Positions 4,870 through 40,676 of a stretch of 41,741 nucleotides of DNA are shown one piece after another. Every line of letters starts with the position of its first letter. Position 1 is the first letter of the stretch. Both the position numbers and the translations under genes were made by a program. The notes beneath the pieces are model-generated. The model made no database searches, was not told the DNA's origin, and saw nothing but the letters and a program-made list of their open reading frames with translations. This stretch comes from Myxococcaceae bacterium (GTDB taxonomy: Bacteria; Myxococcota; Myxococcia; Myxococcales; Myxococcaceae). Where the stretch lies: NCBI GenBank assembly GCA_020247085.1, contig JADCJJ010000039.1, forward strand, positions 1-41,741. The letters run 5' to 3'.

Positions 4870-5066
4870 ACGAGGGCCTGAACGAGGCCGTCAACGGGTT
4901 GAGCCACGAGCCGCAGTCTTCGGGTCACCGTCGAAGCATGACGGTGCACGCGTCGCTCCCGGGACAGGCGCGCCGCCTTCGCGCTACTGTCGTCACGAGC
5001 CCTTGCCGGGGCGGTCGTCGCGTGCTTCGAGGCCCCGGCTCCCGTCGCTGCCGTCGAGAACCCGCC

Positions 5067-6806: not shown

Positions 6807-6819
6807 GGGGAGCGCGGCG

Positions 6820-14397: not shown

Positions 14398-14500
14398 AGA
14401 CCTGCGCGGGGCGCGCACGCTTCGCGGTGCCTTCTGGAGCGGCCCGTGCCGTTCCGAGATGTTGCGGGCCGCGCATGGGAAATGCTTACGCCACACCGCC

Positions 14501-15742
14501 ATGACGGCCGTCGAGCGAGCGCCTGGCGTCGAGAAGCAGCGCGTGCCGCTGACGGAGCTGATTGCGCGCGAGGAGCGCCGGGCCCGGCGCCGCCGGTGGT
14601 GGTGGGCGCTGGCGGCGCTGCTGGTGCCAGCGCTGGGCGTGGGCTTGTGGGCGCTGCTGCGGCCGCGTCCGGTGCCCCTGGCCGCCCGCTTCCGGCAGCA
14701 GGCCGTCAAGCGCGGCGACCTCGTGCGCGAGGTGCGCGCCACCGGCCAGGTGCAGGCGGTGACGACGGTGCTGGTGGGCGCTGAGCTCTCGGGGCGCATC
14801 GCCACGGTGAACGTCGACTACAACGACCGCGTCACCGCGGGCCAGGTGATGGCCACCTTCGACCGGGCGTCGCTCGAGGCGCAGCGCGCACAGACGACGG
14901 CCCTGGTGACGGCCGCCCGGGCGGCGACGGCCCAGGCGAGGGCCGACGTCGTGCAGGCCCGCCGCGGGCGCGCCCGTGCCGACGAGCTCTTCCGGCAGCG
15001 CGCCATCAGCTCGACGGAGCACGAGGCCGCGGTGACGGGGGCGATGGTGGCCGAGGCGCGGCTCCGGGCCGCCGAGGCGCAGCTCGCCGCGCAAGCGGCC
15101 AACGCCGTCGTGGCGAAGACGAACCTCGAGCATGCCGTCATTCGTGCGCCCATCGACGGCGTCGTCATCACCCGCAACGTCGACCCGGGGCAGACGGTGG
15201 CGTCGATGCTGACCACCCCGACGCTCTTCACCGTCGCCGCCGACCTGACGCGCATGGAGGTCGTCGCCGCGGTGGACGAGGGCGACATCACGCAGGTGCA
15301 GCCGGAGCAGCCCGTCACGTTCTCGGTGACGGCCTGGCCGGAGCGCACCTTTCAGGGCGTGGTGGCCGAGGTGCGCAACGCCCCGCGCGTCGTGCAGGAC
15401 GTCGTCAGCTACGACGCCGTCGTCACCGTCGACAACGCCGACCGCTCGCTCAAGCCCGGCATGACGGCGTCGCTGCGCATCCGCACGGGGGCCGTCAGCG
15501 GCGCCGTCTCGGTGCCCAACACGGCGCTGCACTTCACCCCGCCGGGGCAGACGCGACCCGGGCCGGGCGCGGGCGTGTGGGTGCTCCAGGGCGAGGCGGT
15601 GGCCTTCGTGCCCGCCGAGCCGGGCCTGTCCGACGGAGAGTGGACCGAGGTGCGCCGAGGCGTGCTCGAGCCCGGCCGCGCGGTGCTCGTCGACCTGAGC
15701 CCGCAGGGGAAGGTGGCCTATGGCGTCGCCCACGCGCCATGA
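14501..15742 (+). CDS. MacA-like periplasmic adaptor (HlyD/membrane fusion family) of an ABC efflux pump
   Basis: ATG 14501 starts a 413-residue protein with a basic n-region and one membrane helix (WWWALAALLVPALGVGLWALL, about residues 34-54). The fusion-protein core follows: a biotinyl-lipoyl half (GQVQAVTTVLVGAELSGRIA, VNVDYNDRVTAGQVMATFD), a long Ala/Arg-rich alpha-helical hairpin (about 110-200), the second lipoyl half (IRAPIDGVVITRNVDPGQTV), a beta-barrel domain and the membrane-proximal end (LKPGMTASLRI). It would bridge the inner-membrane ABC pump to an outer-membrane channel. The ATPase gene starts within its last codons (overlap at 15720-15742), so the two are translationally coupled. 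No TolC-like gene lies in the window. Confidence 0.9.
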   Translation: MTAVERAPGVEKQRVPLTELIAREERRARRRRWWWALAALLVPALGVGLWALLRPRPVPLAARFRQQAVKRGDLVREVRATGQVQAVTTVLVGAELSGRIATVNVDYNDRVTAGQVMATFDRASLEAQRAQTTALVTAARAATAQARADVVQARRGRARADELFRQRAISSTEHEAAVTGAMVAEARLRAAEAQLAAQAANAVVAKTNLEHAVIRAPIDGVVITRNVDPGQTVASMLTTPTLFTVAADLTRMEVVAAVDEGDITQVQPEQPVTFSVTAWPERTFQGVVAEVRNAPRVVQDVVSYDAVVTVDNADRSLKPGMTASLRIRTGAVSGAVSVPNTALHFTPPGQTRPGPGAGVWVLQGEAVAFVPAEPGLSDGEWTEVRRGVLEPGRAVLVDLSPQGKVAYGVAHAP

Positions 15743-16454
15743 GACGGTGACGGGCCCGGCGCCGCTCCTGGCGCTCGCAGGCGTCACCAAGGTGTACGGC
15801 GTCGGCGAGGCGGCGGTACGGGCGCTCGACGGCGTCGACTTCGAGGTGTGGCCCGGCGACTTCGTGGCCATCACCGGCGCCTCGGGGAGTGGCAAGACGA
15901 CGGTGGTGAGCATTCTCGGGTGCCTCGAGGCGTCGAGCGCCGGCGAGTACCGCATCGAGGGGGTGTCGGTGCAGGCGCTGTCGGCCGACGTGCTGGCCGC
16001 GCTGCGCAACGCGAAGTTCGGCTTCGTCTTCCAGAACTACAACCTGCTCTCGCGCACCAGCGCGCTCGAGAACGTCGCGCTGCCGCTGGTGTACGCCGGC
16101 GTCGGCCGCGTCGAGCGCGAGGCGCGGGCCCGGGCCGCCCTGGCCGAGGTGGGGCTCGAGGGGCGCGAGGAGAGCCGCTCGAACCAGCTGTCGGGCGGGC
16201 AGCAGCAGCGCGTCGCCATCGCCCGCGCGCTGGTGAACGCGCCCGAGGTCATCCTGGCCGATGAGCCCACCGGCAACCTCGACTCGCGCACGGGCCGCGA
16301 CATCATGGAACTCTTGTCGGGTCTCAACCGCGACCGGGGCATCACCGTGCTGATGGTGACGCACGACCCGGCCTGCGCCGCCTGGGCGCGCCGGCGCGTC
16401 GTCTTTCAGGACGGGCGCATCCGCTCGGACACGCGCGGCGAGGTGGCGGCGTGA
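15720..16454 (+). CDS. MacB/LolD-type ABC transporter ATP-binding protein
   Basis: The 244-residue ATPase has all the ABC motifs: Walker A GASGSGKT (53-60), Q-loop in FVFQNYNLL, signature LSGGQQQR (about 158-165), Walker B VILADEPTGNLD (about 177) and the H-loop MVTHD (about 212). The TGNLDS after Walker B and the FVFQNYNLL loop are typical of the LolD/MacB/FtsE class, which power mechanotransmission by four-helix permeases rather than substrate passage through the membrane. It overlaps the adaptor gene upstream by 23 bases, and its stop overlaps the GTG start of the permease, so all three are made as one unit. Confidence 0.94.
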   Translation: MASPTRHETVTGPAPLLALAGVTKVYGVGEAAVRALDGVDFEVWPGDFVAITGASGSGKTTVVSILGCLEASSAGEYRIEGVSVQALSADVLAALRNAKFGFVFQNYNLLSRTSALENVALPLVYAGVGRVEREARARAALAEVGLEGREESRSNQLSGGQQQRVAIARALVNAPEVILADEPTGNLDSRTGRDIMELLSGLNRDRGITVLMVTHDPACAAWARRRVVFQDGRIRSDTRGEVAA

Positions 16455-17662
16455 CGCTCCCGGCCACCGCGTCGCTCGCCTTCACCGCGCTGATGCGCAA
16501 CCGGCTGCGCTCGCTCCTCACCATGCTGGGCGTCGTCATCGGCGTGGGCGCGGTGCTGATGATGCAGGCGACGGGGCGCGGGGCGACGGCCTACGTCGGC
16601 GACACCATCTCGGCGATGGGGAGCAACCTGCTGATGGTCATCCCCGGGTCGCCGCGCCGGCAGATGGGCGGCGGCATGACGGCGCCGCTCTTCACCGTCG
16701 CCGACGTCGAGGCGGTGCGGCGACGGGCCCACGACCTCGACGCGCTGGCCGCGGTGACGACGCGCCCGATGCGCCTGGTGGCGGGGGCGAACAACCGCAT
16801 CGTCAGCGTGGGCGGCGTGTCGCCCGAGTTCCTCTCGATTCGGGGCTGGGGGGTCGCCGACGGGCGCACCCTCACGCGGGAGGACGAGCGGCAGGCGGCG
16901 CAGGTGTGCGTGCTGGGCAAGACGGTGCGCGACGCGCTGTTCCCCGGCGGGCCGGCCTTGGGCCAGGAGCTGCGCGTGCACGAGCTGTCGTGCCGCGTCG
17001 TCGGCGTGCTCGAGGCGAAGGGCGCGTCGGCCTTCGGCATGGACCAGGACGACGTCATGTACCTGCCCTTCTCGACGTTCTCGCGCCGCGTGCTGGGGAG
17101 CGAGCGGGTGGCCTTCATGATGGCGCGGGCGCCCTCGCCGGACCGCATCGACGACCTCAAGGCGCAGCTCGAGGCCGTCATGCGCGAGCGCCGCCGCATC
17201 CTCGAGGGGGACGAAGACGACTTCGCGGTGCGCGACCCGCGCGAGCTGCAGGCGGTGCTCGACCAGGTGACGGGCGTGCTCACCACCTTCCTGCTGGGGG
17301 TGGCGGGCATCAGCCTGGTCGTCGGCGGCATCGGCATCATGAACATCATGCTGGTGTCGGTGACCGAGCGGACGAGAGAGATTGGCGTGCGCCTCGCCGT
17401 CGGCGCGCGGCCCCGCGACATCCTCAGCCAGTTCCTCGTCGAGGCGGTGGCGCTGTCGGCGGCCGGGGGGCTGCTCGGCATCCTCCTCGGCCTCGCCGGT
17501 GCGTGGGGCCTGGCGAAGGCCATCTCGGTGCCCTTCGTCTTCCCGGCCGCGGCCATTCCCGTCGCCTTCGGCGTGTCGCTGCTGGTGGGCGTGGTGTTCG
17601 GCGTCTTCCCGGCGCGCAAGGCGGCGCGGCTCAACCCGCTGGCGGCGCTGCGCTTCGAGTGA
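16451..17662 (+). CDS. MacB-type ABC transporter permease (FtsX domain)
   Basis: GTG 16451 overlaps the stop of the ATPase. The 403-residue protein has one N-terminal membrane helix (MLGVVIGVGAVLMMQ), a large periplasmic region (about residues 45-270) including the MacB core motif MGSNLLMVIPG, and three C-terminal helices beginning FLLGVAGISLVVGGIGIMNI. The conserved V-T-E-R-T-R-E-I-G-V-R-L-A-V-G-A-R loop follows, and the protein ends P-A-R-K-A-A-R-L-N-P-L-A-A-L-R-F-E. This is the MacB topology with the ATPase as a separate chain. Together with the adaptor it should form a tripartite export pump for peptides, lipids, toxins or antibiotics; the cargo is not evident. Confidence 0.93.
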   Translation: MTLPATASLAFTALMRNRLRSLLTMLGVVIGVGAVLMMQATGRGATAYVGDTISAMGSNLLMVIPGSPRRQMGGGMTAPLFTVADVEAVRRRAHDLDALAAVTTRPMRLVAGANNRIVSVGGVSPEFLSIRGWGVADGRTLTREDERQAAQVCVLGKTVRDALFPGGPALGQELRVHELSCRVVGVLEAKGASAFGMDQDDVMYLPFSTFSRRVLGSERVAFMMARAPSPDRIDDLKAQLEAVMRERRRILEGDEDDFAVRDPRELQAVLDQVTGVLTTFLLGVAGISLVVGGIGIMNIMLVSVTERTREIGVRLAVGARPRDILSQFLVEAVALSAAGGLLGILLGLAGAWGLAKAISVPFVFPAAAIPVAFGVSLLVGVVFGVFPARKAARLNPLAALRFE

Positions 17663-17743: not shown

Positions 17744-20700
17744 ATGAGATTTCGGTCGTTGATGGTGTCCCTTCTGGGCCTCGGTGCCTGTACGCCAGAG
17801 GTGCCGCAGCAGCTCGAGTCGGGCTTCTCGATGCCGCAGCACTCGCTGTCGTTCGCGAACTTCGCCCTCGGCTACGAGAAGTCCGCGATGGACACCGGGG
17901 CGATGCAGCGCATGTTCGGTGACCGTGTCTGTCAGCCCGGCTCGTCGCCCTGCCAGCTGACCCCTGGCGCCCGGAACTTCGCGAAGAAGGCCAACGCGGC
18001 GATGGCCGGCGGACGGTGCGAGGGGTTCGCGGTGCTCTCGTCGCTGTTCGAGCGAAAGAGGCTCGACCCGAACGACTTCGGCGGCGCCTCGGCGCGGGAC
18101 CTGAGCCTCGAAGACAACGAGCCGCTGCAGCGCGAGATTGCCTACTGGTTCTCGACCCAGCTCGTCTCGAGCGTCTCGGCGGGCAAGACCAAGGCGTACC
18201 AGGCGAAGGACGTGATGCCTGCGCTCGCCAGGGCCCTCGCGAAGGACGCGCCCGAGCGCTTCCGCCTGGGCATCGTGCGCAAGAAGGGAAACACCGTGTC
18301 GGGTGGGCACGCGTTGACGCCCATCGGGTACTCGGCCGACCCGTCGGAGAAGGGCGTCTACTGGCTGCGCGTCTACGACAACAACAACCCCGACGCGGAG
18401 CGGTTGATGAAGATCGACACCGTCAACAACCGCTGGGAGTTCAACGCGTCGGAGAACCCCAAGCGGTCCACCCGCCTGTACATGGGCGACGCCGAGAACA
18501 AGAACCCGCTGTACCTCGCGCCCATCCTCACGCGCACCGGGACGCTGCCCTGCGACTTCTGCGAGGCCGGCGGCAAGACGCTGGTCACCACGAGCGGCGG
18601 CGCGCAGGCGTCGGGGGGCGGCGTCGGCGTTCGCGAAGGCGAGCTCTCCGAGGGGGCGAGCCCCAGCTTCTCCATCGGCCTCGACAACGCCCCGGCCGAG
18701 TTCAACTTCTTCCTGCCCAGCGGCGCCGTGAGCCTCGACATCACCAACCCCGGCGACCCCGACTTCCCCGACGCGGTGCAAGAGGTCGGGCTGCAGGGCC
18801 CGAACTTCAACGTCTCGGCCTTCAACCTGCGCGTCACCGGCACCGACCAGCTGCAGGTGGGCGCCGGCGGCACCAGCCTCTCGTTCCGCAACGAGAGCGG
18901 CAACCCGCTGGGCCTCAAGACCGAGGTGGGCCTGGCCGATGGGCGGTCGCTGGCGGTCTCTGCCGTCGTCAGCGGCACCTCGACGGGCGTCACGGCCTCG
19001 GTCGACCCGGCGAGCGGCAAGGTCGACATCGGCGCCGCCGGCTCCTCTGGCTCCACCGTGACCCTCGTCGTGACGGCCACCGACGACAAGGGCCAGGAGC
19101 GCACCGGCCAGCTCACCTTCGTCTCTTCGGGTGACGGGGGCATCAGCGCCGACACCACCGGGTGGATGGCCGGCGACCCGCTGTCGGGCACGGTCAACAA
19201 CAACGGCTCGATGATGATGGTGACGAACGCCTGCGAGGACGGGCGCCGGTCGGGCATGGAGTCTGACGTCGACTGCGGCGCGGTGTGCACCCTCAAGTGC
19301 GGTGTTGGCCTGCGGTGCGGCGCCGGAGCCGACTGCCAGTCGACCTTCTGCAACTCCATGACGGGGCGCTGCGTCGCGACGTCGTGCGACGACCGCGTCC
19401 GCTCCGGTGACGAGACCGACGTCGACTGCGGCGGGAGCTGCGGGGCCTGCGCGGTGGGCCTCAGCTGCGCGCGCACCAGCGACTGCGCCGGCACCGCCAG
19501 CTGCCAGAGCGGCACCTGCCGGGCGACCTTCGCGGTCGCGGTGGACGTCACGGGGTTGCCCGCGGGCAGCGCGCCCCTTTTGCTGCAGAACAACGGCGCC
19601 GACGCGCTCACCGCGCCGACCAACGGCCGCTTCTCGTTCCCCACGCGGGTCCTCGGCGCCTACGCCATCACGGTGCAGACGCAGCCCGACCTCGCGACCT
19701 GCGCCGTCACCGGCGGCACGGGCACCGCCACCGCCGACGTCGTGGTGGCCGTCACCTGCACGCCGACGTTCTCGGTGGGCGGCTCGGTGAGCGGCCTGCC
19801 GGCGGGCGAGTCGGTCGTTTTGGCCAACGGCGGAGACAGGCTCACGGCGAGCGCGAACGGGCCGTTCACCTTCACCACGCGCGTCTCTGGCGCCTACGCC
19901 GTCACCGTGGCGACGCAGCCGGCCAGCGCGACGTGCACCGTCTCTGCCGGCAGCGGCACCGCGAGCGCCGACGTCACCGACGTGCTCGTCGTGTGTGGTT
20001 CGATGCCCCAGTACACGATTGGCGGAACGCTGTCGGGGCTCGGGGCGGGCAGGAGCATCACCCTCGCCAACGACGGTGAGCAGCTCCCGCTCACGATGAA
20101 CGGGGCCTTCCAGTTCGTCACCCCGGTTCCGGGCCCGTACAACGTGACGATCTCGGCGCAGCCGATGGGGCAGACCTGCGCGGTTGCCAACGGGAGCGGC
20201 ACGGCGACCGCCAACGTGACCAACGTGACCGTGGTCTGCAGTGGCGCCCAGGGGCGCGACACCACGTTCGGGACCAACGGCTTCCTGCGCGTCGCGCCGA
20301 CGCCAGACTTCGATGCCTGGCACGCGCTCGTCGTGAACGCAGACGACAGCATCGTGCTCGCGGGCTTCACCGAGGCCAGCCCTGGCGTGAGCCAGTGGCT
20401 CGTCTCGAAGGTGACGGCCGCGGGCGCCATCGACACCAGCTTCGGCGTCAACGGGAGCCGGCTGGTGACCGCGGGCGCGGGGGCCGAGCAGGCCGAGGCG
20501 TTGGTGCGCGACTCCATGGGCCGCTACGTGGTCGTGGGGACACTCGCTGGCGCGACGAACCTTGACCTCGGCGTGGCCCGGCTCACGAGCGCGGGCGCCC
20601 TCGACACCACGTTCGGTACCAACGGCATCGCTCGCTTCGACTTCGGAGGGGACGAGTTCGCAGAGGACGTGGCCATCGACAGCCAGGGTCGGCTGGTCGT

Positions 20701-21421
20701 CGTGGGTCACCAGGCGGGCATGTCGGGCGAGGAGCTGGTGGTGGCACGGCTCACCGCCGCCGGGGCGCTCGACCCGACGTTCGCCACCAACGGCCGCTTC
20801 CTGTCCAGCACGCCGCAGCCCGACAACCTGCTCGGCGTGGCCATCGATGGGTCTGACCGGGTGGTCGCCGTCGGCTTCCGCGACCAGGACTCGCTGGTCC
20901 TCCGGCTCACGTCGGCGGGCGTGCCCGACTCGAGCTTCGGTTCGATGGGGGTGTTCACCGTCGACCTCACGACGGGCTTGTTCTCTGACCGACTGAACGC
21001 CGTGGCGCTCGATGGTGCGCGCATCGTCGCGGCTGGCGAAGGGCTCGACAGCGCTTCGTCGAACTACTACCTCGCAGGCTTCACGCAGGCCGGCGCTCTC
21101 GACACGAGCTTCGGCGCGGGTGGAACCACGATCATCGGTGGAGCGACGGCGAACGAAGCGCTCACCTCTCTGGTGCGGAGGCCTGGTGGCGGCTGGTACG
21201 CCGCGGGCTTCAGCGACGGCAGCGCGGCGGTGCTCCGGTTCAGCGCCGCTGGCGCCATCGACACCACCTTCAGTATGGCCGGCGAGTTCCGCGACTCGTA
21301 CTCCGGGACAGCCGCGGCGTTCGGGGTCGCCCTCGATGGGCTCGGGCGCATCGTCATCGCTGGGCCGTTCTCCGTTGGGGCCAGCCTTCCCGACCTGGGC
21401 GTCGCGAGGATCAACCCATGA
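17744..21421 (+). CDS. Mosaic lipoprotein: papain-like domain, Cys-rich modules, triple repeat, delta-60 repeats
   Basis: ATG 17744 follows GGGAG (17731-17735) and opens a lipoprotein signal ending LLGLGAC. Of 1225 residues, about 60-270 look like a Cys-protease-type fold: GGRCEGFAVLSSLF with C92, SGGHALTPIGYS with H189, and VYDNNNPD with D212/N213-215, an order of Cys, His, Asn/Asp matching papain-like enzymes. A beta-rich region follows. Two Cys-rich modules (C-E-D-G-R-R-S-G-M-E-S-D-V-D-C-G and a second with E-T-D-V-D-C-G-G-S-C-G-A-C) lie at about 496-598. Three repeats of about 78 residues (V-x-G-L-P-A-G ... Y-A-V-T-V ... C) come next. The rest is delta-60 beta-propeller repeats (D-T-T-F-G-T-N-G, D-x-x-G-R-x-V-V-V-G). 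The target is unknown. Confidence 0.87.
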   Translation: MRFRSLMVSLLGLGACTPEVPQQLESGFSMPQHSLSFANFALGYEKSAMDTGAMQRMFGDRVCQPGSSPCQLTPGARNFAKKANAAMAGGRCEGFAVLSSLFERKRLDPNDFGGASARDLSLEDNEPLQREIAYWFSTQLVSSVSAGKTKAYQAKDVMPALARALAKDAPERFRLGIVRKKGNTVSGGHALTPIGYSADPSEKGVYWLRVYDNNNPDAERLMKIDTVNNRWEFNASENPKRSTRLYMGDAENKNPLYLAPILTRTGTLPCDFCEAGGKTLVTTSGGAQASGGGVGVREGELSEGASPSFSIGLDNAPAEFNFFLPSGAVSLDITNPGDPDFPDAVQEVGLQGPNFNVSAFNLRVTGTDQLQVGAGGTSLSFRNESGNPLGLKTEVGLADGRSLAVSAVVSGTSTGVTASVDPASGKVDIGAAGSSGSTVTLVVTATDDKGQERTGQLTFVSSGDGGISADTTGWMAGDPLSGTVNNNGSMMMVTNACEDGRRSGMESDVDCGAVCTLKCGVGLRCGAGADCQSTFCNSMTGRCVATSCDDRVRSGDETDVDCGGSCGACAVGLSCARTSDCAGTASCQSGTCRATFAVAVDVTGLPAGSAPLLLQNNGADALTAPTNGRFSFPTRVLGAYAITVQTQPDLATCAVTGGTGTATADVVVAVTCTPTFSVGGSVSGLPAGESVVLANGGDRLTASANGPFTFTTRVSGAYAVTVATQPASATCTVSAGSGTASADVTDVLVVCGSMPQYTIGGTLSGLGAGRSITLANDGEQLPLTMNGAFQFVTPVPGPYNVTISAQPMGQTCAVANGSGTATANVTNVTVVCSGAQGRDTTFGTNGFLRVAPTPDFDAWHALVVNADDSIVLAGFTEASPGVSQWLVSKVTAAGAIDTSFGVNGSRLVTAGAGAEQAEALVRDSMGRYVVVGTLAGATNLDLGVARLTSAGALDTTFGTNGIARFDFGGDEFAEDVAIDSQGRLVVVGHQAGMSGEELVVARLTAAGALDPTFATNGRFLSSTPQPDNLLGVAIDGSDRVVAVGFRDQDSLVLRLTSAGVPDSSFGSMGVFTVDLTTGLFSDRLNAVALDGARIVAAGEGLDSASSNYYLAGFTQAGALDTSFGAGGTTIIGGATANEALTSLVRRPGGGWYAAGFSDGSAAVLRFSAAGAIDTTFSMAGEFRDSYSGTAAAFGVALDGLGRIVIAGPFSVGASLPDLGVARINP
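19531..20239 (+). repeat. Three in-frame repeats of about 235 bp inside the mosaic lipoprotein
   Basis: Units start near 19531, 19768 and 19999. Each encodes G-L-x-A-G, a run like L-x-N-x-G, an F-T/Q-F strand, G-x-Y-x-V-T/I, a Cys in T-C-A/T-V and a closing V-V/T-C. They are diverged at the protein level, so this is an old module duplication rather than a recent slippage product. Confidence 0.75.
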
Positions 21422-21606
21422 CGAAGCGCTCGGCCGCCGGCGAGGTCGATACCCGCCCGAACGTGTCAGGCGTCTCTGACGAAGGCCTCGTGACCCCGGC
21501 CCTCTCGGACCTCCCGAGGGTGGACATCGCGCTGCGCCTCGTCGCGATTGGTACCGTTCGCTGCATCGGCTCCGAGGCCCTCGGCGTCGCCGCCATCACC
21601 CCTTGA
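21418..21606 (+). CDS. Possible small ORF between the two giant lipoprotein genes
   Basis: A 62-residue frame begins at an ATG that overlaps the preceding stop (ATGA) and ends 14 bases before the next ATG. Codon bias is G/C-rich at third positions as in real genes here. It has no signal peptide, helix or motif I recognise, and the opposite strand is also open across it. It could be a translationally coupled small protein or a chance open frame. Confidence 0.3.
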   Translation: MTKRSAAGEVDTRPNVSGVSDEGLVTPALSDLPRVDIALRLVAIGTVRCIGSEALGVAAITP

Positions 21607-21620
21607 TTCTTGGAGCGCTC

Positions 21621-24600
21621 ATGAACCTGCGCCTTGCCTGGGTCGTCTCTGCATCGCTCTTGGTCGTCTCCGGGTGCACGCCCGAGAGTGACCCGCCGCC
21701 GTTGTTCAATGCCAGAGACCTCAGCGTCCAGTGCCCCACGGGGCAGGTGGGCTGGGACTTCTCGACGGGCGGCAACGACAGCGCCATCGTCGAGAACAGC
21801 GTGTCGAGAGAGATTACCGTCGACAGCGCGACCCTCGGCACCTGCAACTACAAAGACGACTTCGCCATCGACTGCGACGGCAAGCGGGACTGCTCGCGGC
21901 TGGTGAAGAAGCCCACGTCGCCGGCCTGCGCCGGCGGGGCGTTCAGGCTGGTCTACCGGTGTGGCGACGAGACGCCCCGGTACGAGCTCGTTGTCGCCGG
22001 CGAGGCGTCGGGGCAGACGGTGCGTCTGGGCTGCGGCGAGCCCATCACCATCGTCTCGGCCATCTACGGCAGCAATGCCCCCACGTCGGCCAACCGGGCC
22101 GACATCACCACGGCCGTGGCGAGCGCGTGCACGGGCAAGCGGCGCTGCTCGCTCGACGACCCCTACGTACTGAATTCCCGCGTCGACCCCTGGCCGAACG
22201 CGGCCAAGGAGACCGCCATCAGGTACTACTGTGGCACCGACCCCGGGGTGAAAGAGGCGACGGTCGCCTCGGGTGCGCGCGTCGACCTGCTGTGCCCCAA
22301 CGTCGATGGGCGGGTCGTGCAGCGCGACACCATGCGCTTCCAGCAGGTGAGCTGCCCTACCTGCCGCCCTGCCGACCAGGCGCGCCTCGCACAGTGGGAG
22401 GCCACCCTCCGCGCCCGCTGCGAGGGCCGGGAGTCGTGCCGTATCCAGCTCGACAAGTGGGTTCGAGGCGGCCCCGGCCCGCTCCTGGTGAAGGTCGACT
22501 ACTGGTGCACGACGCCGCAGGCGCCCGAGTCGCGGCTCTTCTACACCGACGACACCAAAGAGACGTCGCTCGACCTCCACTGCGGAGTCCCCATTCGCAT
22601 CGTGGCAGCGCGAGGCAACGCCGCCAGGCTCGAGGCGGCCCGCGAGGCGTGTGACGCGAAGTCCACCTGCGTGCTCCCCAGCATCGGGTTCCCTGCCAGC
22701 TATGACGGTGGCGTTCCGAACCCGAGACAATTCATCGCGGAATACGACTACACCTGCGGAGAGAACGAGTTCGACGTCAAGACCACGTCCTATCGAAGAG
22801 ACGCTTTCTTTCAGCAATCAACCGGGTCCTGGCGGCTCTCCGTGGAGCAGCCCTTCGACCTGCAGGTGCGCTGCCCGAACCCGAGCCAGAACCTGGTCGG
22901 CGGCATTCGCATCGTCGACTCGAGCATCGGCATCGTCGAGGCCACCAAGCAGTGCTACGGGCGCGACGTCTGCAACCTGCCGTCGAACGTGACGGCGACG
23001 TACCGCTGCGGCACCAGCAACCAGGTCAAGTCGTCGCAGTCGGCGTCCGTGACGGTCATCGGCCGGCCGTCGGCCGGGTTCCCCAATGGAACGCCCGTGA
23101 GCGTTCCGCGCTCCCAGCTCACGTGCCGCCCCGACGTCAAGATTCTCTCGCTCGAGTGCGACTGGGACCTCGATGGCCAACGCGACCAGCGCAACTGGTG
23201 CTGGAACGCGCAAAGGTTCCCGACTGCGCGGCGCCTCGGGGCCGACGTCAATGCGCTGTGCCCCCCGGGGAACAACGGGGACTGCCAGCTGCGCAAGCAG
23301 GGCAACCTCGTCGCCCACCTCAAGTGGCGGTGCGGGGCCGACCCCAAGGTCTACTCGTACGACGGCGACGGGGAGCCCGACCCGGACTACTCGTACCCGG
23401 TGTCCGTGCTGCGTCCGCGGTGCGAGGTGGCCGACACGCCCTACGTCGAGAAGGCCTGCGTCCCGGCCACCTGCCCGGGGACGATGCGGCGCGACTCGAA
23501 GCTGGCATGCATTCCCGACGCGACGAAGCCGCGCACCGAGGTGTTCACGGCCCCCGTACTCAAGGAGTGGGCGACCAACCCCGACGGTGGCACCTCGCAG
23601 TGGGGTGGCGCCGAGGTCACGGCGCTCCGCGAGGACTTCCCCTATCAGCTCTTCGGGTTCTCGCAGTACCGTGCGACCAACGGCGCCCGGCTCGAGCCCA
23701 CCACGCCGGTGACGCTCTGGGCCTATGACGAGTTCACCGCACGGGCCGACGCCGGCGTGCCGGCGAACCGGGCGACGACGACGGGGTTCCGGTGCGTGCT
23801 CGCCGAGGCCCCGATTCGAGACGCCGAGTACCCGCCCATCACCACGGGCTATCGCCTGGTGGTGAACGGCGGCAAGGGCGGCGTGCTGCCGCTCCCGTGC
23901 TTCCGGCAAGAAGTCGAAGACGGTCGCAACGCCTGGTCCGACGCGGCCCGGCGGGTGGGCATCCCCGAGTCGGAGTTCCGTCGGAAGTACACGCGCGCGA
24001 AGTCGTTCGTGGTGTCGGCCTTCGACCCGCTCGGCAAGACGAGCGCGCGGACGCTCAACGGGGCGCTGCTCCCGGCGCCGAACCCCATCGGGTTCTTCTA
24101 CGACTCGAACAACGGGTGGATAGACCAGCTCGGCTTCTACTCGCAGAGCTCCGACTTCCGGTTCAGGAAGGAAGTGACGTTCGTCGAGAGCAACACCATC
24201 GAGCTCTCGGCGCTGAGCGCGTCGCTGCGCGAGCCCAACGTCAAGCTCGACGTCGGGAACTCCGACCTGCTGCCGACGTTCGACGTCGACTTCACCTGGG
24301 CGCAGCGTGGCGACTCGCCCGCGCGGAACCCCTTCTCTCCGCGCACCATGCTGTCGGCCAACGCGGCGACGCCGCTGAGCGCCCGGAACCTGCGCGCGAC
24401 GCTCGAGCTGGCCTACGAGGCCGCGGTGCCGGGCGCCACCTCGAGCGAAGCGAAGTGGGTGGCCGTCAACGCCATCGCCGTCACGACGACGGGCCTCGGC
24501 GGCGGGAACGCCATGTCGCAGACGGCGCGCATCAGCGGCGCCTTCACCCCGGCCCTGCGCGCCCGGGCGATGAGCGTGCGTGGCGGCAACGCCGCGCTGA

Positions 24601-26372
24601 ACCAGACGAGCGATGGCTTCATGCGCACCTGGACCGAGGACAAGACGTTGTTCCGCGTGCGCGTGTGCATGGACTTCGACGAGGTCACGCACGCGCTCGG
24701 CACCGTCGAGGCCACCAGCGCGTCGCTCGACGACAAGGGCGTCACGGCGAGCCGCAACAGCGTCTCGTATGGGCTCAAGTTCACCAGGCGCTGCGCCGAG
24801 GCCAACCCGCTCCTGCTCGAGCGGGAGCTGTTCGTCTACCCGACGACTCCGACGAAGACGCAAGAGACGCCGCTCAACACCGCCGCCACGCGCGGCCAGG
24901 GAGACACCAGCGCCGGCAGTGGCAACGACACCGGCAACCAGAGCGCCTGCACCGAGGCCAACGGGGTGCAGACGTGCAGGGGCGTGTCGCGCAACAACAT
25001 GGCGCTGTCGGGGCAGTTCCCCATCTCGGCCTTCGAGTCCGAGTCCAACGACGAGGCCGCGCAGGAGTCGACGCGCAAGTCGACCCGCATCAGCAGCGAG
25101 ATGAAGCTGTTCGGCTTCAAGGTGTTCGACCTCTCGGGCGGCAACGGCAGCGAGCCGCAGTCGGCGGGCGCGTGGGAGGTGCGGCTCGACCTGACCCCCA
25201 ACATTCAGGCCATCATCGACCTGGTCAAGTCGCGCAAGACGGCTGGCGTGAAGACGGAGGGCGAGAAGAAGAAGATGAAGCCCAAGCAGAAGAAGGGCGC
25301 GGTCCGCAACCTGTTGAGCAAGTTCGAGCGCGATGGCGTCGGCGTGGCGCTCAAGAAGGAGTTCCCCTTCACCCTGGGGCCCTTCCCCTTCGTCATCGAG
25401 GTCGGCTTCACCGTCGGCGTCGGCTTCGGCGTGACGCTCATCGTCGGAGGCGACTTCCAGAGTGTCTCGTCGATGGCCAACCCGAAGTACGGCTGCCTCA
25501 AGGCCACGCCCGGCCGCTGCTTCAGCGCCTTCAACGACCCGCAGCCGTTCCCCGACGCCCTCGGGGCCTGCCGGAACAAGGGCGGGACCCTGGCAGAGGT
25601 CCGCAACGCGGGCGACTTCGGCAGCGTGCGCGACGCCGTCTCGATGGTGGGTGGCGCGACGACGGCCTTCTGGTTGGGAGGGCAGCTCGCCTACCAGTAC
25701 GAGGACCCGAAGTGCGACACGAGCCGCGCGGCCACCTGCCCTGGCCTCTCGCGCACCCGCTACGCCTGGCTCGTCGGCGACGCGCCCTTCGCCAACCAGG
25801 TCGGTACCGCCACCGCGTTGGTGAACCCCGTGGCGCTGCAGGGCGCCCACGGCTTCGGCACCAACCTGGGCACGCTCACGACCCGGGTCCCCAACGACGC
25901 CGCCGTGCTCTACAAGAAGGACAGCCAGAACCTCATCACCGACGTGGCCTCGGCGAACCGGCCGTACGTATGCATGTTCGACCCGGCCCACAGCTACATC
26001 GAGTCGAAGATCGGGCTCGAGCTGAAGGCTGAGTTCTCCATCGGCTTCAGCGCGAAGATCTGCACCCCGAGCGTCGACATCGGCTTCTGCCTCGGTGTCG
26101 GCATCAACCTGATGACCGCCGGCATCAACATCGCGGCCGAGCGGTCGCGCGTCACGGTGTACGACCGGCCCGGGTCGAGGTTCCGGTTGCTCGGTGACTC
26201 GAAGATCTCGGGCGCGTGGGAGGTCGCCTTCCTTTCGGGCAACTTCTCTGCCGAGATGAACTTCCTCTTCTTCAGCACCTCGTGGGAGATCGCCTCGTAC
26301 AAGGGCCTGTGGGCCGAAGAAAACGAGCTGTTCCCCGAGCTCTCCAGCCCCTACGCGAGGACCTTCCCGTGA
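21621..26372 (+). CDS. Giant lipoprotein with tandem SUEL-lectin-like modules and a C-type-lectin-like domain
   Basis: ATG 21621 (TGGAG at 21611) gives 1583 residues with a lipoprotein signal (VVSGC, C19). Residues 38-571 hold about six Cys-patterned modules (38-114, 138-204, 225-296, 321-379, 418-463, 502-571). Each has an opening L-x-C or R-C, a hydrophobic I-x-I segment, a C-x-G-K/R-x-x-C core (ACTGKRRCSL, RCEGRESCRI, QCYGRDVCNL) and a closing Y-x-C-G, the layout of SUEL/galactose-binding lectin domains. The middle (about 640-1200) is unrecognised; a Lys-rich patch lies near 1213-1232. Residues 1292-1451 look like a C-type lectin fold: R-C-F-S-A-F, A-L-G-A-C-R-N-K-G-G-T-L-A-E-V, W-L-G-G-Q-L, Y-A-W-L-V-G and a final R-P-Y-V-C. 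Carbohydrate binding at the cell surface is inferred. The next gene overlaps its stop. Confidence 0.85.
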   Translation: MNLRLAWVVSASLLVVSGCTPESDPPPLFNARDLSVQCPTGQVGWDFSTGGNDSAIVENSVSREITVDSATLGTCNYKDDFAIDCDGKRDCSRLVKKPTSPACAGGAFRLVYRCGDETPRYELVVAGEASGQTVRLGCGEPITIVSAIYGSNAPTSANRADITTAVASACTGKRRCSLDDPYVLNSRVDPWPNAAKETAIRYYCGTDPGVKEATVASGARVDLLCPNVDGRVVQRDTMRFQQVSCPTCRPADQARLAQWEATLRARCEGRESCRIQLDKWVRGGPGPLLVKVDYWCTTPQAPESRLFYTDDTKETSLDLHCGVPIRIVAARGNAARLEAAREACDAKSTCVLPSIGFPASYDGGVPNPRQFIAEYDYTCGENEFDVKTTSYRRDAFFQQSTGSWRLSVEQPFDLQVRCPNPSQNLVGGIRIVDSSIGIVEATKQCYGRDVCNLPSNVTATYRCGTSNQVKSSQSASVTVIGRPSAGFPNGTPVSVPRSQLTCRPDVKILSLECDWDLDGQRDQRNWCWNAQRFPTARRLGADVNALCPPGNNGDCQLRKQGNLVAHLKWRCGADPKVYSYDGDGEPDPDYSYPVSVLRPRCEVADTPYVEKACVPATCPGTMRRDSKLACIPDATKPRTEVFTAPVLKEWATNPDGGTSQWGGAEVTALREDFPYQLFGFSQYRATNGARLEPTTPVTLWAYDEFTARADAGVPANRATTTGFRCVLAEAPIRDAEYPPITTGYRLVVNGGKGGVLPLPCFRQEVEDGRNAWSDAARRVGIPESEFRRKYTRAKSFVVSAFDPLGKTSARTLNGALLPAPNPIGFFYDSNNGWIDQLGFYSQSSDFRFRKEVTFVESNTIELSALSASLREPNVKLDVGNSDLLPTFDVDFTWAQRGDSPARNPFSPRTMLSANAATPLSARNLRATLELAYEAAVPGATSSEAKWVAVNAIAVTTTGLGGGNAMSQTARISGAFTPALRARAMSVRGGNAALNQTSDGFMRTWTEDKTLFRVRVCMDFDEVTHALGTVEATSASLDDKGVTASRNSVSYGLKFTRRCAEANPLLLERELFVYPTTPTKTQETPLNTAATRGQGDTSAGSGNDTGNQSACTEANGVQTCRGVSRNNMALSGQFPISAFESESNDEAAQESTRKSTRISSEMKLFGFKVFDLSGGNGSEPQSAGAWEVRLDLTPNIQAIIDLVKSRKTAGVKTEGEKKKMKPKQKKGAVRNLLSKFERDGVGVALKKEFPFTLGPFPFVIEVGFTVGVGFGVTLIVGGDFQSVSSMANPKYGCLKATPGRCFSAFNDPQPFPDALGACRNKGGTLAEVRNAGDFGSVRDAVSMVGGATTAFWLGGQLAYQYEDPKCDTSRAATCPGLSRTRYAWLVGDAPFANQVGTATALVNPVALQGAHGFGTNLGTLTTRVPNDAAVLYKKDSQNLITDVASANRPYVCMFDPAHSYIESKIGLELKAEFSIGFSAKICTPSVDIGFCLGVGINLMTAGINIAAERSRVTVYDRPGSRFRLLGDSKISGAWEVAFLSGNFSAEMNFLFFSTSWEIASYKGLWAEENELFPELSSPYARTFP

Positions 26373-28420
26373 ACGCCCGCACCGTGACCGTCGCCCTCTC
26401 CGTGGGGCTCGCCGTGGTCCTCCTCGTCGGCGCCGGCCTGTGGGTGACGCGCGGCACGCAGGCCACCGCCGACGGCGCCTCGCCTGGCCCTACTGCCTCG
26501 CCCGTCGCGGCGTCGCCGTCGGGAACCCCCTCGGGTTGTCACCTCGAGCGCGGCCAGGGTTTCGCCTTCGCCTACCGGAGCGAGACGCACTCGCGCATCT
26601 CGGCGCAGCTGCCGGGCGCGAGCGAGGTCATCACGCAGGCGGCGACGGTCGAGCTGACCGGCACCCTGTCGTTCGAGGTGCTGTCGGCTGGTGAGCGCGA
26701 CGCGGTGCTGCTCGGGCGGCTGTCGGGAGTGAATGCCCCGGCGACGCGTGCGGCCGGCCCGACGCTCGAGGCCGGCTTCTTGCTGCGCGTCGACGAGCAG
26801 TGCCAGGTGACGGCCTTCGCGCGTCACCAGCAGACGCCCCAGGTCGCGGCTCGTGCCCAGCACGTGGTGGTGACCGACCTGTCGTTCGCGACGGCCGACG
26901 GCGCGGCGCCGCGTGAGGTGGTCTTCCCGACGTCGCTCGGCACCCTTCGCGCGCTGGTGCTCCCGGGCGACGCGCCCGGCACCCTCGTTCGCCGGGCCCT
27001 CGCGTACACGGCCCACTGGGCCCCGCGCATGGCTGCTGTGCAGCTCGTCGAGGGCGACGTCGAGGTGCGCCGGGGCGCGTCGCGCTGGTTCGAGGGGCTG
27101 CGCGGCGTCGAGGTGGTGGCCGGCGGCGAGGTGCAGACGTCGAAGACCGAGTGGAGCCTCGCGGCGCAGCCGTACGACGCCACGGCGCTCGCCGGGGTGA
27201 CCCGCGAGGTGGGAGACTACGTGTGGGAGAACTCGCTGGGGGTGGTGGAGGGCGGCGAGGTGGTGGTGGGCACCGAGGCCGAGGACCACGCCCGCCGGGT
27301 GGCCACCATGCGCGACGTCTCCTTCGACGCGGCGCTGCTGCGCTTCGGCGCGAAGCTGGAGGCGGGCGTGAACATCAACGAGCAGTGGCGCGACATGGCC
27401 GCCTGGCTCGACGCGCACCCCGAGCGCATCACGGACTATGTCGAGGTCATCACCGACGAGGCCTTCCCCGCCGGAGGCAAGGCCCCGGCGTTCCTGGCGC
27501 TCGGGCAGACGCAGAACCCCGTCGCGCGCGAGGCGCTGTTGGGGGTGTTCCGCGAGCCCGACTTCCAGCAGGGCGACCGCATTCGCAGCAGCCTCGCGCT
27601 CTCGATGCGCACCGACGTCGGCCTGCCGCTGGCGAAGGAGCTCAAGGCCGTCGCGGCGCAGGGCGGCGGGAGCGACTCCGAGGCGGCCGTCGCGCGCCAG
27701 GCCGTGCTGCACCTCGGCGTGCTGGCGGGCACCCACCGCGCCCAGCCCGACGTCGTCGCCGAGTCACTCTCGCTGGTGAGCGCGCTGGCGGGGAGCGCGA
27801 AGACGGCCGACGACTACTCGGTGCTGTTCGGCCTCGTCGGCAACATGGGCGAGCCGTCGCTCTTGCCCCGCATCGCCGACTGGTCGCGCAGCCCCGACCC
27901 GGTGTTGCGGCGCGAGCTCCCCGACGCGATTCGCCGGTACCGCGTCGAGCGGGTGCATGACCTGGTGCTCGAGTGGCTGCAGCGCGAGACGGACGCCGAC
28001 GTGAAGCGCGGCCTCTTCGACACGCTCTACCACATGTACGTCGACGCCGGCCGGCCGGTGGAGGAGGACCTGATGCGTGAGGCGCTGCGGCACCTCGATG
28101 AGCAGCCGCTGCCGCTGACGCGGCAGTCGCTGTACCACCTGCTGACGCCCCACGCGCATCGGCCCGAGGTGAAGGCGGCGCTGACGGCCGGGCTGCGCCT
28201 CGAGCTCGCGGAGAAGAGCGGGCTGTACGCGCTGGTGGCGCAGGCTCTGCCTCGAGAGAGCATCTACGAGGCGCTCCGCGTCGACGTGCGCTCGTCCGAC
28301 ACGCCGGCCGCCGCGCCGGCGGCCACCCCCGGGCGCCCGTTGAACGAGGCCGCGCCGCCGGGCTTCGACGCCATCATGCAGCAGGCGCTGCGCGCCGCCG
28401 AGGGGGAGCGCGCGCCATGA
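26369..28420 (+). CDS. Membrane-anchored protein resembling vitellogenin-type lipid-transfer proteins (beta sheet plus HEAT-like helices)
   Basis: The start is GTG 26369, overlapping the previous stop (GTGA), and it opens a signal anchor (VALSVGLAVVLLVGAGLWV). Of 683 residues, about 58-270 form a beta-rich domain starting G-x-x-F-A-F-A-Y-R-S-E-T-H-S with alternating strands (TVELTGTLSFEVLSAG). Residues about 330-640 are helical pairs, for example A-P-A-F-L-A-L-G-Q-T-Q-N-P-V-A-R-E-A-L-L and later blocks ending L-P-D-A-I-R-R-Y-R-V. A beta sheet with Y-x-Y strands followed by an alpha superhelix with an A-L-G-T/Q-x-x-N-P-type turn is the layout of the vitellogenin/MTP N-terminal region. That fold match is my inference from pattern alone; HEAT-repeat protein is the safer name. 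It is coupled to both neighbours. Confidence 0.75.
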   Translation: MNARTVTVALSVGLAVVLLVGAGLWVTRGTQATADGASPGPTASPVAASPSGTPSGCHLERGQGFAFAYRSETHSRISAQLPGASEVITQAATVELTGTLSFEVLSAGERDAVLLGRLSGVNAPATRAAGPTLEAGFLLRVDEQCQVTAFARHQQTPQVAARAQHVVVTDLSFATADGAAPREVVFPTSLGTLRALVLPGDAPGTLVRRALAYTAHWAPRMAAVQLVEGDVEVRRGASRWFEGLRGVEVVAGGEVQTSKTEWSLAAQPYDATALAGVTREVGDYVWENSLGVVEGGEVVVGTEAEDHARRVATMRDVSFDAALLRFGAKLEAGVNINEQWRDMAAWLDAHPERITDYVEVITDEAFPAGGKAPAFLALGQTQNPVAREALLGVFREPDFQQGDRIRSSLALSMRTDVGLPLAKELKAVAAQGGGSDSEAAVARQAVLHLGVLAGTHRAQPDVVAESLSLVSALAGSAKTADDYSVLFGLVGNMGEPSLLPRIADWSRSPDPVLRRELPDAIRRYRVERVHDLVLEWLQRETDADVKRGLFDTLYHMYVDAGRPVEEDLMREALRHLDEQPLPLTRQSLYHLLTPHAHRPEVKAALTAGLRLELAEKSGLYALVAQALPRESIYEALRVDVRSSDTPAAAPAATPGRPLNEAAPPGFDAIMQQALRAAEGERAP

Positions 28421-29007
28421 CGACGAGCGCCCGGTTCCCCTTCGCTGCGACGGTCGTCCTCGCGCTGCTCGCCGGCTGCCCTGGGCCGAAGCCAACGCCT
28501 CCGGTCGAGGAGGAGGCGGAGGAGCCGTTCGACGGCGAGACGATGTCCAGCGTCATCCCCAGGGTCGACCCCGACAGCCCCTTCGACGCGGGCGTCTTCG
28601 TCATCGACGCGGGCAGAGTCGAGGTCGAGACGCGGTGCTGCGCCACCACGTTTTCCATCTCGGACCAGGAGCCGGCCGACGCCACCGGCGTGCTGGTGGG
28701 CGAGTCGTCGGCCCTGAGACCCGGCCTTCCGCTTCGGAGGACCGACGCCGGCTGGACGGCGAGCGCGTGCGTGACGCTCAACACCTCGTCGTTCTACCGG
28801 TACCGATTCGAGTGGGACGGCGGCACGCGCGACGCGGGCGAGGTCGACCTGCCCGACGGCGGCGTCGAGATCTCCATCGTCCCCGTCACCATCGTCTCGG
28901 AGCGCGCCAGCGACCGCGAGCCGAGCGTGTCGGACGCGACGGGGCAGCAGAACTACTACCGCGCCGTCAGCGCCTGTGACGGCCTGGACGGTGGGGTGCC
29001 CCCGTAG
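28417..29007 (+). CDS. Small lipoprotein, third gene of the lectin-like operon
   Basis: The ATG at 28417 overlaps the stop of the preceding gene (ATGA), so it should be co-translated with it. The 196-residue protein has a lipoprotein signal (VVLALLAGC, then P-G-P-K). A Pro/Glu-rich linker follows. The mature domain has R-C-C-A-T-T-F-S-I, S-A-C-V-T-L-N-T-S-S-F-Y-R-Y-R-F and repeated aspartate-glycine turns (D-G-G, D-A-G), suggesting a beta-sandwich with a possible disulfide. No family is recognised. Its position suggests it works with the lectin-like and vitellogenin-like proteins, perhaps as an outer-membrane partner. Confidence 0.8.
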   Translation: MTTSARFPFAATVVLALLAGCPGPKPTPPVEEEAEEPFDGETMSSVIPRVDPDSPFDAGVFVIDAGRVEVETRCCATTFSISDQEPADATGVLVGESSALRPGLPLRRTDAGWTASACVTLNTSSFYRYRFEWDGGTRDAGEVDLPDGGVEISIVPVTIVSERASDREPSVSDATGQQNYYRAVSACDGLDGGVPP

Positions 29008-38431: not shown

Positions 38432-39105
38432 AGGCCCGCTTTCACCCGGTGACCGACCTGGATGTCGAGCGCTACCTCGTCGGAGAGCTCTCGGGCGACG
38501 AGGCCGCTCGCGTCGAGGCGGCCGCCCGCGCCTCCGAGGTGCTCCAGCGGCATCTCGACGAGCGCCGCGCGGCGAAGCGGGCCTTCGCGCTGAAGCGCCC
38601 CCCGCTGCGGCTCCCGGCGGCGACCCGCCCGGCGTGGTGGCCGTGGGCGCTCGCGCTCCCGGTGGCGGCCGCCGCGCTCGTCGCGGTGGTGCGCCGAGCT
38701 CCCGTCGAGGGTGACGGCCCGGGCATCGCCCGTCGGGGCGCCGAGGTGGCCGAGGTCGAGATTGCCGTGCAGCGCGAAGAGGCCGTCTTCCCCTGGCGCG
38801 CGGGCGTCATCCTCGAGCCGAAGGACAGGCTCCGCCTCACGGTGAAGACGGCGGCGCCGAGCGTTGCGACCCTCATCGGCGAGGACGCGAGGCGGGAGCC
38901 GGTGATTCTCTACGAGGCCGTGGCCCTGCCCGGTGGAGCGCTGACGCTGCCGGGGAGCCTCGAGGTCGATGACACCCCTGGCGGCGAACGCCTGTACCTC
39001 TTCGTGGGGCCCACCGCGCCAGACGCGCCTGCGCTGCTGAAGGCGGTGCGCGCTGGCCGGGCCGATGGGGCCCTCGTCATCACGCTCGAGAAGCGCCGGC
39101 CATGA
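38428..39105 (+). CDS. Anti-sigma-factor-like membrane protein
   Basis: Its ATG overlaps the sigma stop (ATGA). The 225-residue protein has a cytosolic helical head (D-L-D-V-E-R-Y-L-V-G-E-L-S-G-D-E-A-A-R-V-E) of the kind seen in anti-sigma proteins, but without the HxxxCxxC zinc motif. One membrane helix (about residues 70-88, WWPWALALPVAAAALVAVV) follows. The outer part is a beta domain: V-I-L-E-P-K-D-R-L-R-L-T-V-K, S-V-A-T-L-I-G-E-D, G-E-R-L-Y-L-F-V-G-P, resembling DUF4384-type domains. It probably holds the sigma at the membrane until an envelope signal is sensed. The next gene again overlaps at the stop. Confidence 0.75.
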   Translation: MKARFHPVTDLDVERYLVGELSGDEAARVEAAARASEVLQRHLDERRAAKRAFALKRPPLRLPAATRPAWWPWALALPVAAAALVAVVRRAPVEGDGPGIARRGAEVAEVEIAVQREEAVFPWRAGVILEPKDRLRLTVKTAAPSVATLIGEDARREPVILYEAVALPGGALTLPGSLEVDDTPGGERLYLFVGPTAPDAPALLKAVRAGRADGALVITLEKRRP

Positions 39106-40676
39106 GGGTCGTCGGGCTCGTGCTGCTGCTGGTGGCCCACGGCGCCTCGGCGGCGGTGCGCTTCGCGCTCGTCATCGGGCACGACGTCGGCCTGCCCGAC
39201 GAGCGCGCGCTCCACTGGGCCGAGTCCGACGCCGCGAAGGTGTTCCGGCTGCTGACCGAGCTGGGCGGGGTCGACGAGGCCCGCGGCGCGCTGCTGCAGG
39301 GCCAGCCGGTGCGCGCCGTCGAGCTGGCGATGGCCCGGCTGGCCGGACAGGTGGCCGAGGCGCGTCGGCGGGGTGAATGGACAGAGGTCATCGTCTTCTT
39401 CTCCGGGCATGGCGACCTCGCCACGCTCCACCTCGGTGACGACCGGCTGCCCCGGGCGACGCTCGAGGCGTGGGTGAAGGCGGTACCCGCCGACGCGACC
39501 CTCGTCTTCATCGACGCCTGTCGCACCGGCCCCGTGCGAAGCGGGGCCTCGAAGGGGTTGCGCCGCGCGCCGGCCTTCGACGTGCGGTTCTCCCGCCAGG
39601 CGGGCATGTCGGGCCGGGTCACCATCGAGTCGGTGGGGGCGGACGAGTCGGCGCAGGAGTCCGACGACCTGCAGAGCGGCTTCTTCACCCATCACCTGCT
39701 CGCCGGGCTGCGCGGCGCCGCCGACGTCGACCGGGACAAGCGCGTGTCGCTCGCCGAGGCGTACCGGTACGCCTACCACCGGACGGTGACGACGTCGTTC
39801 GGCGCCGCTGAGGCCGCGCAGCACCCCTCCATGAGCGCTGAGCTCGAGGGCGAGGGCGAGTTCATCGTCACCTCGCTCGACCGCGCCAGCGCCCTGCTGC
39901 AGGTCGAGGCCGACGTCTCCGGCGAGCTCCTCGTCCTCGACGACGCCGCTGGGACCGTGGTGTCCGAGGTGCGGCTGTCGGGGGCGGGGCCGCTGGTGCT
40001 CGCCCTGCCGGTCGGGGACTACCGGCTGGTCCGCCGGGCGGGGAGCCGTGTCTGGGCGGGGCGGGCGCGGCTGGTCTGGGGGCGGAGCGCGACGGTGACG
40101 GCGGAGCAGCTCGTGGAGCAGCCACGCGTGGCGGCCATGCAGCGCGGCGCGAGCCTCGAAGTCGCGCCGTGGCGTCTGTGGGCAGGGGGCTCGGCGGCCG
40201 CTCCGCGGGCGCTGGGCGCGGGCATCAGCCTGGGCGTCCGAGCCGGGGTGGAGCGGCGCCTCACGGGGTTGTGGGGGGTTGGACTCCGGCTGGGGGGAGG
40301 CAGCGCGCGCGCGCTGACGCCCCGCTGGGCGCTGCAGCAGGTCGAGGTCGCCGGGGGGCCGGTGGTGACGGTCGAGCGCGCCGTCGGGCTGGTGCGGCTG
40401 GGGCTGGCGCTCGGCGTCGAGGGCGTCGGCATCGTGTCGGCGGGTGTCCACCTCGAGGCGGAGCGGCTGGCGTCGGCCGACGCGGGCCCCGTGCAGACCG
40501 ATGGCTGGACGCTCGGCGCGGGGTTTCAAGCCGACGCCTGGGTGGGGCTCGCGCTACCTGCGAGCCTCGAGCTGCGGCTCTCTGCAGGCATGGCGGTGTC
40601 ATGGGTGGTGGTGAGCGGCCAGCCGCGCACGACCTGGGCGCCAGCGCTGGTGGTCGCGCTCGCGGTCGCTCGCTAG
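39102..40676 (+). CDS. Secreted caspase-fold (C14) protease with a C-terminal beta-barrel-like region
   Basis: ATG 39102 overlaps the anti-sigma stop. The 524-residue protein has a signal peptide (VVGLVLLLVAHGASA). The caspase domain spans about 20-250: R-F-A-L-V-I-G at the first strand, catalytic H103 in F-F-S-G-H-G-D and catalytic C140 in V-F-I-D-A-C-R-T-G, then G-F-F-T-H-H-L-L-A-G-L, D-V-D-R-D-K-R-V-S-L and Y-R-Y-A-Y. A beta domain (about 265-330) follows. The last 160 residues are alternating amphipathic strands rich in G, with a terminal stretch ending V-V-A-L-A-V-A-R, like an outer-membrane barrel. Co-location with sigma and anti-sigma suggests proteolysis in an envelope signal route; the target is unknown. 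Confidence 0.85.
   Translation: MRVVGLVLLLVAHGASAAVRFALVIGHDVGLPDERALHWAESDAAKVFRLLTELGGVDEARGALLQGQPVRAVELAMARLAGQVAEARRRGEWTEVIVFFSGHGDLATLHLGDDRLPRATLEAWVKAVPADATLVFIDACRTGPVRSGASKGLRRAPAFDVRFSRQAGMSGRVTIESVGADESAQESDDLQSGFFTHHLLAGLRGAADVDRDKRVSLAEAYRYAYHRTVTTSFGAAEAAQHPSMSAELEGEGEFIVTSLDRASALLQVEADVSGELLVLDDAAGTVVSEVRLSGAGPLVLALPVGDYRLVRRAGSRVWAGRARLVWGRSATVTAEQLVEQPRVAAMQRGASLEVAPWRLWAGGSAAAPRALGAGISLGVRAGVERRLTGLWGVGLRLGGGSARALTPRWALQQVEVAGGPVVTVERAVGLVRLGLALGVEGVGIVSAGVHLEAERLASADAGPVQTDGWTLGAGFQADAWVGLALPASLELRLSAGMAVSWVVVSGQPRTTWAPALVVALAVAR

Follow-up and report, generated by a model that had tools for sequence, protein, structure and literature searches.

We analysed a window of 41,741 nt from a Myxococcaceae bacterium (GCA_020247085.1, contig JADCJJ010000039.1, forward strand), which carries a conserved myxobacterial four-gene operon, here called Z-A-B-C. 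The model of its third product, B, gives good support for counting this bacterial protein among the N-terminal modules of the large lipid transfer proteins (LLTPs), or among their structural relatives; the LLTP superfamily comprises MTP, vitellogenin/lipovitellin and apoB (PF01347). Z, A and C have lipoboxes, while B starts with a hydrophobic helix and has none. Our preferred reading of the operon, with a probability of about 0.45, is that A and B would form a split LLTP-like complex for lipid binding or transfer at the envelope, equipped with glycan-binding surface domains. A first-pass annotation of this DNA had proposed a three-gene unit of A, B and C; these three do belong together, but the unit has four genes and Z is the first of them.

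Relatives were found with A, B and C as queries against genomes of the Myxococcota, and the loci were then read with one profile per gene; outside the Myxococcota the distribution was covered by a single scan with the Z profile and by 14 control genomes. The Z scan, which took in 84,980 species genomes, returned 22 loci, most of them with a complete Z-A-B-C and the rest mostly cut by contig ends. Nearly all are from Myxococcaceae/Archangium-type metagenome genomes, and one is labelled Bdellovibrionales, a genome that we place in the Myxococcota. The four genes keep one order and orientation in many loci, so that conservation of gene order across the Myxococcota, named beforehand as a point on which the proposed unit could fall, speaks for it. 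Most junctions overlap by 1 or 4 bases: no intact relative lacks a Z ahead of A, in most cases with an overlap of this size, all intact A-B junctions fall between -4 and +14 nt, and B and C share 1 or 4 nt at every junction. Because this spacing is kept in relatives, the start-to-stop overlaps in the window (GTGA at 26369, ATGA at 28417), which the annotation had located exactly, are not due to chance. The Z-A junction of the window has a gap of 199 nt, containing a 62-aa open reading frame (ORF) that is not present in relatives. Since the relatives have a direct Z-A overlap, the junction in the window carries an insertion or spacer, and the ORF is probably a spacer or coupling ORF.

Some loci depart from this plan. 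The genome of the window also holds a second, paralogous B-C pair (locus L069, 13631-17738, G000:C73), with a partial A, truncated or interrupted, and no Z detected. The second Z copy of another genome, G153, comes last in a run of a B-like gene, a sheet-domain lipoprotein, a trypsin-like serine protease and Z (L104, 3953-14470). At two loci the gene immediately before Z, read in the same direction, encodes an OmpA-family protein with TSP3 repeats (L072, 1630-2991, typed by Pfam; L073, 17222-18697), and a gene of this type may be a fifth component of the cassette.

The AlphaFold model of B, made with an 18-sequence alignment, has a mean predicted local distance difference test score (pLDDT) of 82.5 and consists of a beta-domain (residues 64-286) followed by about 17 helices (residues 303-646). 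When this model was compared with the PDB by Foldseek, the best eight matches were all LLTPs (E 1.2e-15 to 1e-6), including MTP (1.2e-15), lipovitellin (3.9e-9), apoB (3.2e-8) and bee vitellogenin (1e-6), and the best non-LLTP matches, designed helical repeats, began at 1.2e-4. The VIA alignment with lipovitellin spans both domains (508 residues, model 58-620 against chain 17-624, Z-score 16.9), and the apoB barrel 9bd8 aligns to residues 54-389 (Z-score 16.7). By model and alignments, B has the LLTP arrangement of an N-terminal beta-barrel (N-sheet) followed by an alpha-helical superhelix. The annotation had seen in B a lipid-transfer protein or a HEAT scaffold and had suggested a comparison with vitellogenin/MTP folds; the structure search agrees with the former, and B is not merely a HEAT scaffold.

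The sequence matches of B are less pointed. A single-sequence Pfam scan of the window B gave weak HEAT_2 alone and no match to Vitellogenin_N (PF01347); among 19 members of the B family HEAT_2 is the commonest Pfam match (16), and Vitellogenin_N weakly matches four orthologs (best 1e-3). Across the Myxococcota, Vitellogenin_N lies above the Pfam cut-off in 53 of 189 genomes vs none of the 14 controls, and the proteins that match it form one family with B by profile, distant B homologs aligning over their full length (E 2.5e-62). The LLTP module in these bacteria is already recognised by public profiles, and a search of the open literature found no paper on bacterial LLTPs. No other LLTP domain was matched in A or B. 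The N-terminal helix of B is likely to be a membrane anchor. Among other members of the family, a 397-aa variant (L111, 11139-12332, on the same contig as L087) has apparently lost the barrel and starts with a cleavable-looking signal peptide, and at two Myxococcaceae loci a dnaA-like gene is followed immediately by an LLTP-module gene (L153, 1461-3524; L141, 9218-11185).

In other Myxococcaceae, too, the genes of distant B homologs have a neighbour that encodes a large secreted protein (A'), and the C-terminus of A, minus its lectin insert, is homologous to that of A' (hhalign 94.8%, E 5e-8). For this sheet domain a model was made from other genomes than those to be searched; in 18 genomes of about 9-13 Mb it found 43 matches, of which 41 are no more than 2.5 kb away from an LLTP-module gene and 38 are on the same strand, which marks LLTP module and beta-sheet lipoprotein as an old, dedicated pair. 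Many genomes of the Myxococcota have one to five members of the LLTP-module family, and a beta-sheet partner adjoins most of them, though no sheet partner was detected in this count for 11 of the 52 LLTP genes. The A' partners have a canonical-looking N-terminal C-type lectin, above the Pfam cut-off and with an EPN motif, and many sheet-domain partners are encoded in short open frames, about 400-540 aa in length. From the pairing data, the partner of B is defined by its sheet domain, with lectins that vary in position, and there is good support for LLTP modules and the A-type sheet domain occurring as a pair.

The N-terminal third of A consists of six Cys-rich repeats (repeat hidden Markov model, E 3e-12 to 4e-26), whose profile retrieves L-rhamnose-binding lectins first from the PDB (5h4s at 3e-5, CSL3 at 7e-5). 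Pfam SUEL_Lectin stays below its cut-off (18.1 bits vs 31.4), and going by their sequence we call the repeats SUEL-like and claim nothing beyond that. Relatives of A form two groups, one with a long A of five or six repeats and one with a short A of a single N-terminal repeat. Nearer the C-terminus, the A model matches the C-type-lectin fold (Z-score 14.9, root-mean-square deviation 2.5 Å over 118 residues; Foldseek 1.5e-5; profile 4e-17). The annotation was right in announcing carbohydrate-binding-type folds for A, and the SUEL-type repeats and the C-type-lectin fold are likely to be its outward recognition parts. The C-type-lectin domain keeps the conserved cysteines and a W[IL]GxQ motif; the EPN/QPD and WND calcium/sugar motifs are absent from the A family alignment, which makes carbohydrate binding by this domain of the window A doubtful. 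It sits between very long predicted beta-strands of the C-terminal domain, and three of the seven strands of this sheet show strong hydrophobic alternation over the family (2.6-3.2 vs a 95% null of 2.0).

We propose that Z and C are operon-specific accessories of the A-B core. The N-terminal domain of Z has motifs in papain-like order, Cys84 (GGRCEG), His182 (GGHAL) and Asp205/Asn207 (YDNN), numbered from base 17765, and is possibly a papain-like enzyme or pseudoenzyme with putative catalysis; it has no sequence match in Pfam or the PDB. The Cys of this pattern is kept in nine sequences, including all long-A loci; in the short-A sequences, all 14 of them, Ser takes its place (GHSEG or GRSEG). 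Among relatives this domain is conserved and the C-terminus is variable. C, correctly called a lipoprotein from the start (lipobox LLAGC), has no Pfam match.

Animal LLTPs hold the barrel, the helical superhelix and the lipid-cavity sheets in one chain. With barrel and superhelix in B and a candidate sheet in the adjoining A, a split LLTP-like carrier is the most economical reading. B, tethered to the membrane and facing the periplasm, would collect or shield lipid and load it together with A, which would take up the lipid or complete the cavity; the partly amphipathic long strands at the C-terminus of A may supply the lipid-contacting sheet missing from B, and the lectin domains would address the A-B complex to a glycan surface. 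Here we infer the lipid binding, the complex between A and B, its localisation and the direction of transfer. A stricter version, which we entertain only tentatively, is a true two-gene LLTP system in which an MTP-like, tethered B serves a lectin lipoprotein A that takes up lipid via its amphipathic sheet as vitellogenin and apoB do; bacteria would then possess the central part of the lipoprotein assembly known from animals, and a surface particle that carries lipid, or a machine that transfers it, would be defined.

Several results weigh against the split-carrier reading. TM-scores of the B model to LLTPs are about 0.3, with large root-mean-square deviations, indicating a common architecture and no close superposition. 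In PDB sequence profiles of B, designed and generic HEAT repeats rank before LLTPs, so that it is structure and Pfam, and not these profiles, that carry the assignment of B to the LLTPs. The B chain does not continue beyond the helical domain and lacks lipid-cavity beta-sheets of its own, for which reason we file it as an LLTP N-terminal module and not as a complete LLTP. On the side of A, only the three strands mentioned above are clearly amphipathic, the sheet region is modelled at moderate confidence, and its fold was not among the known structures found with the A model; because the lectin insert dominated that search and filled the list, this result does not speak for a new fold.

In the main rival reading, B would act in the periplasm as a scaffold or as a secretion chaperone of LLTP-like shape, folding, stabilising or exporting A without carrying lipid, and A would be the functional surface protein. 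The predicted membrane anchor of B, the coding of its family beside a partner of one kind, the generic HEAT_2 matches and the allocation of the large outward-type domains to A would all fit such a role. We nevertheless regard it as unlikely, if worth serious attention, since the LLTP match of B spans the beta-barrel as well as the helices, the best LLTP match is about eleven orders of magnitude ahead of the best non-LLTP by Foldseek E, and Vitellogenin_N is above the cut-off in B paralogs, all of these points bearing on fold and not on function.

An operon for adhesion or recognition at the cell surface, directed at prey, kin or matrix glycans, would use the SUEL and C-type-lectin domains of A as glycan binders, Z for the processing of surface proteins and B in a structural role. 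This reading would account for the six SUEL-type repeats of the long-A group, for the C-type lectins above the Pfam cut-off with EPN in partners elsewhere, and for the lipoprotein nature of Z, A and C. It seems distinctly improbable to us given the lack of EPN/WND in the C-type-lectin domain of A, the single N-terminal repeat of the short-A group and the many sheet-domain partners of only about 400-540 aa, in which lectins are not the constant part. We give very little credence to a contact-delivered toxin or outer-membrane-exchange cargo system akin to SitBAI/TraAB, with the N-terminal domain of Z as a papain-like effector. Myxobacterial cassettes of overlapping lipoprotein genes do perform such delivery (SitBAI, PMC5562445), and Z has the Cys/Ser-His-Asp/Asn pattern, but its putative enzymatic domain is N-terminal and conserved and its C-terminus variable, the reverse of polymorphic toxins, and Pfam/NCBIfam scans gave no nuclease, immunity, PA14, TIGR04201 or MYXO-CTERM match. 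For the joint role in cell-cell contact, predation or outer-membrane exchange that the annotation had suggested as a possibility, these scans likewise gave neither a TraA/TraB hallmark nor a toxin domain.

Set against known systems, B shares with the LLTP superfamily the type and order of its domains, N-terminal beta-barrel then alpha-superhelix. Unlike animal LLTPs, B is bacterial, has a predicted N-terminal membrane anchor and leaves the beta-sheet-rich part to a separate adjoining gene. The six repeats of A match CSL3 and other rhamnose-binding lectins of the SUEL type, but remain below the Pfam cut-off and are fused to a bacterial lipoprotein; its other lectin domain shares the fold and conserved cysteines of C-type-lectin-like domains (Pfam Lectin_C), while differing from canonical C-type lectins in the missing motifs and in being inserted between strands of another domain. 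TraA/TraB, the outer-membrane exchange proteins of Myxococcus, resemble the operon products in being located in the myxobacterial envelope, in having lectin-like domains and in the overlap of their genes (PMC3325183), and in at least two loci Z is closely preceded by an OmpA/TSP3-type gene. Membership was rejected, as Pfam and NCBIfam scans did not find the hallmarks PA14, TIGR04201 Cys-rich repeats and MYXO-CTERM (PMC3325183), and TraAB is not described as having an LLTP module. Myxobacterial toxin cassettes of the SitBAI type also consist of overlapping lipoprotein genes; their hallmarks are a C-terminal toxin domain and an immunity gene downstream (PMC5562445). This assignment was rejected too, no toxin or immunity domain being convincingly matched in Z, A, B or C and no immunity gene found.

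LLTPs have been described as animal lipoprotein-assembly proteins (PMC1783640), and the myxobacterial operon suggests an animal-like lipid-carrier module in bacteria. An LLTP-module family in the Myxococcota would extend the superfamily beyond animals and raise the question of common descent, transfer or convergence. It would also give a tractable bacterial setting for lipid loading by an LLTP module, and candidates for lipid handling between inner membrane and cell surface in social predatory bacteria.

Table 1. Coordinates of the Z-A-B-C operon and its features in the window
Feature	Position	Strand	Residues	Description
Gene Z	17744..21421	+	1225 aa	ATG start; lipoprotein (MRFRSLMVSLLGLGAC), lipobox LGAC; conserved N-terminal domain, Cys-rich NGxETDVDCGG repeats, C-terminal delta-60/DUF5122 beta-propeller repeats
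Z N-terminal domain	17765..18592	+		papain-like by motif alone
ORF between Z and A	21418..21606	+	62 aa	ATGA overlap with Z stop; TTGA end at possible A start
Gene A	21621..26372	+	1583 aa	ATG start, alternative TTG at 21603; lipoprotein, lipobox VVSGC
A SUEL/L-rhamnose-lectin-type repeats	21711..23393	+	about 31-591	six in tandem, Cys-rich; repeat model and PDB matches
A first long strands of C-terminal sheet domain	25329..25463	+	1237-1281	predicted beta-strands, one face hydrophobic
A C-type-lectin-fold domain	25470..25988	+	about 1284-1456	inserted into sheet domain
A remaining long strands of C-terminal sheet domain	25992..26369	+	1458-1583	predicted; homologous to A' C-terminus
Gene B	26369..28420	+	683 aa	GTG start overlapping A stop; LLTP-module protein
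B N-terminal hydrophobic helix	26387..26428	+	7-20	sequence and model (low model confidence here)
B beta-barrel (N-sheet-like)	26540..27226	+	about 58-286	apoB barrel alignment
B alpha-helical superhelix	27275..28306	+	about 303-646	model, structure matches, Pfam HEAT_2 and Vitellogenin_N
Gene C	28417..29007	+	196 aa	ATG start overlapping B stop; lipoprotein; invariant CysCys pair and two more Cys

The MacB-type efflux genes upstream of Z (14459-17659) were considered as members of the unit and dropped, not being conserved beside Z elsewhere. Plasmid and PHROGs searches were negative. Elsewhere in the window, two adjoining genes (4899-8784) encode several HYDIN/ASH/Cep192-type Ig-like domains well above Pfam cut-offs, families best known from cilia and centrosomes. 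A secreted-looking caspase-domain (Peptidase C14) protein is encoded at 39102-40676, and an IS91-type transposase zinc-binding domain lies at the contig edge (41042-41707).
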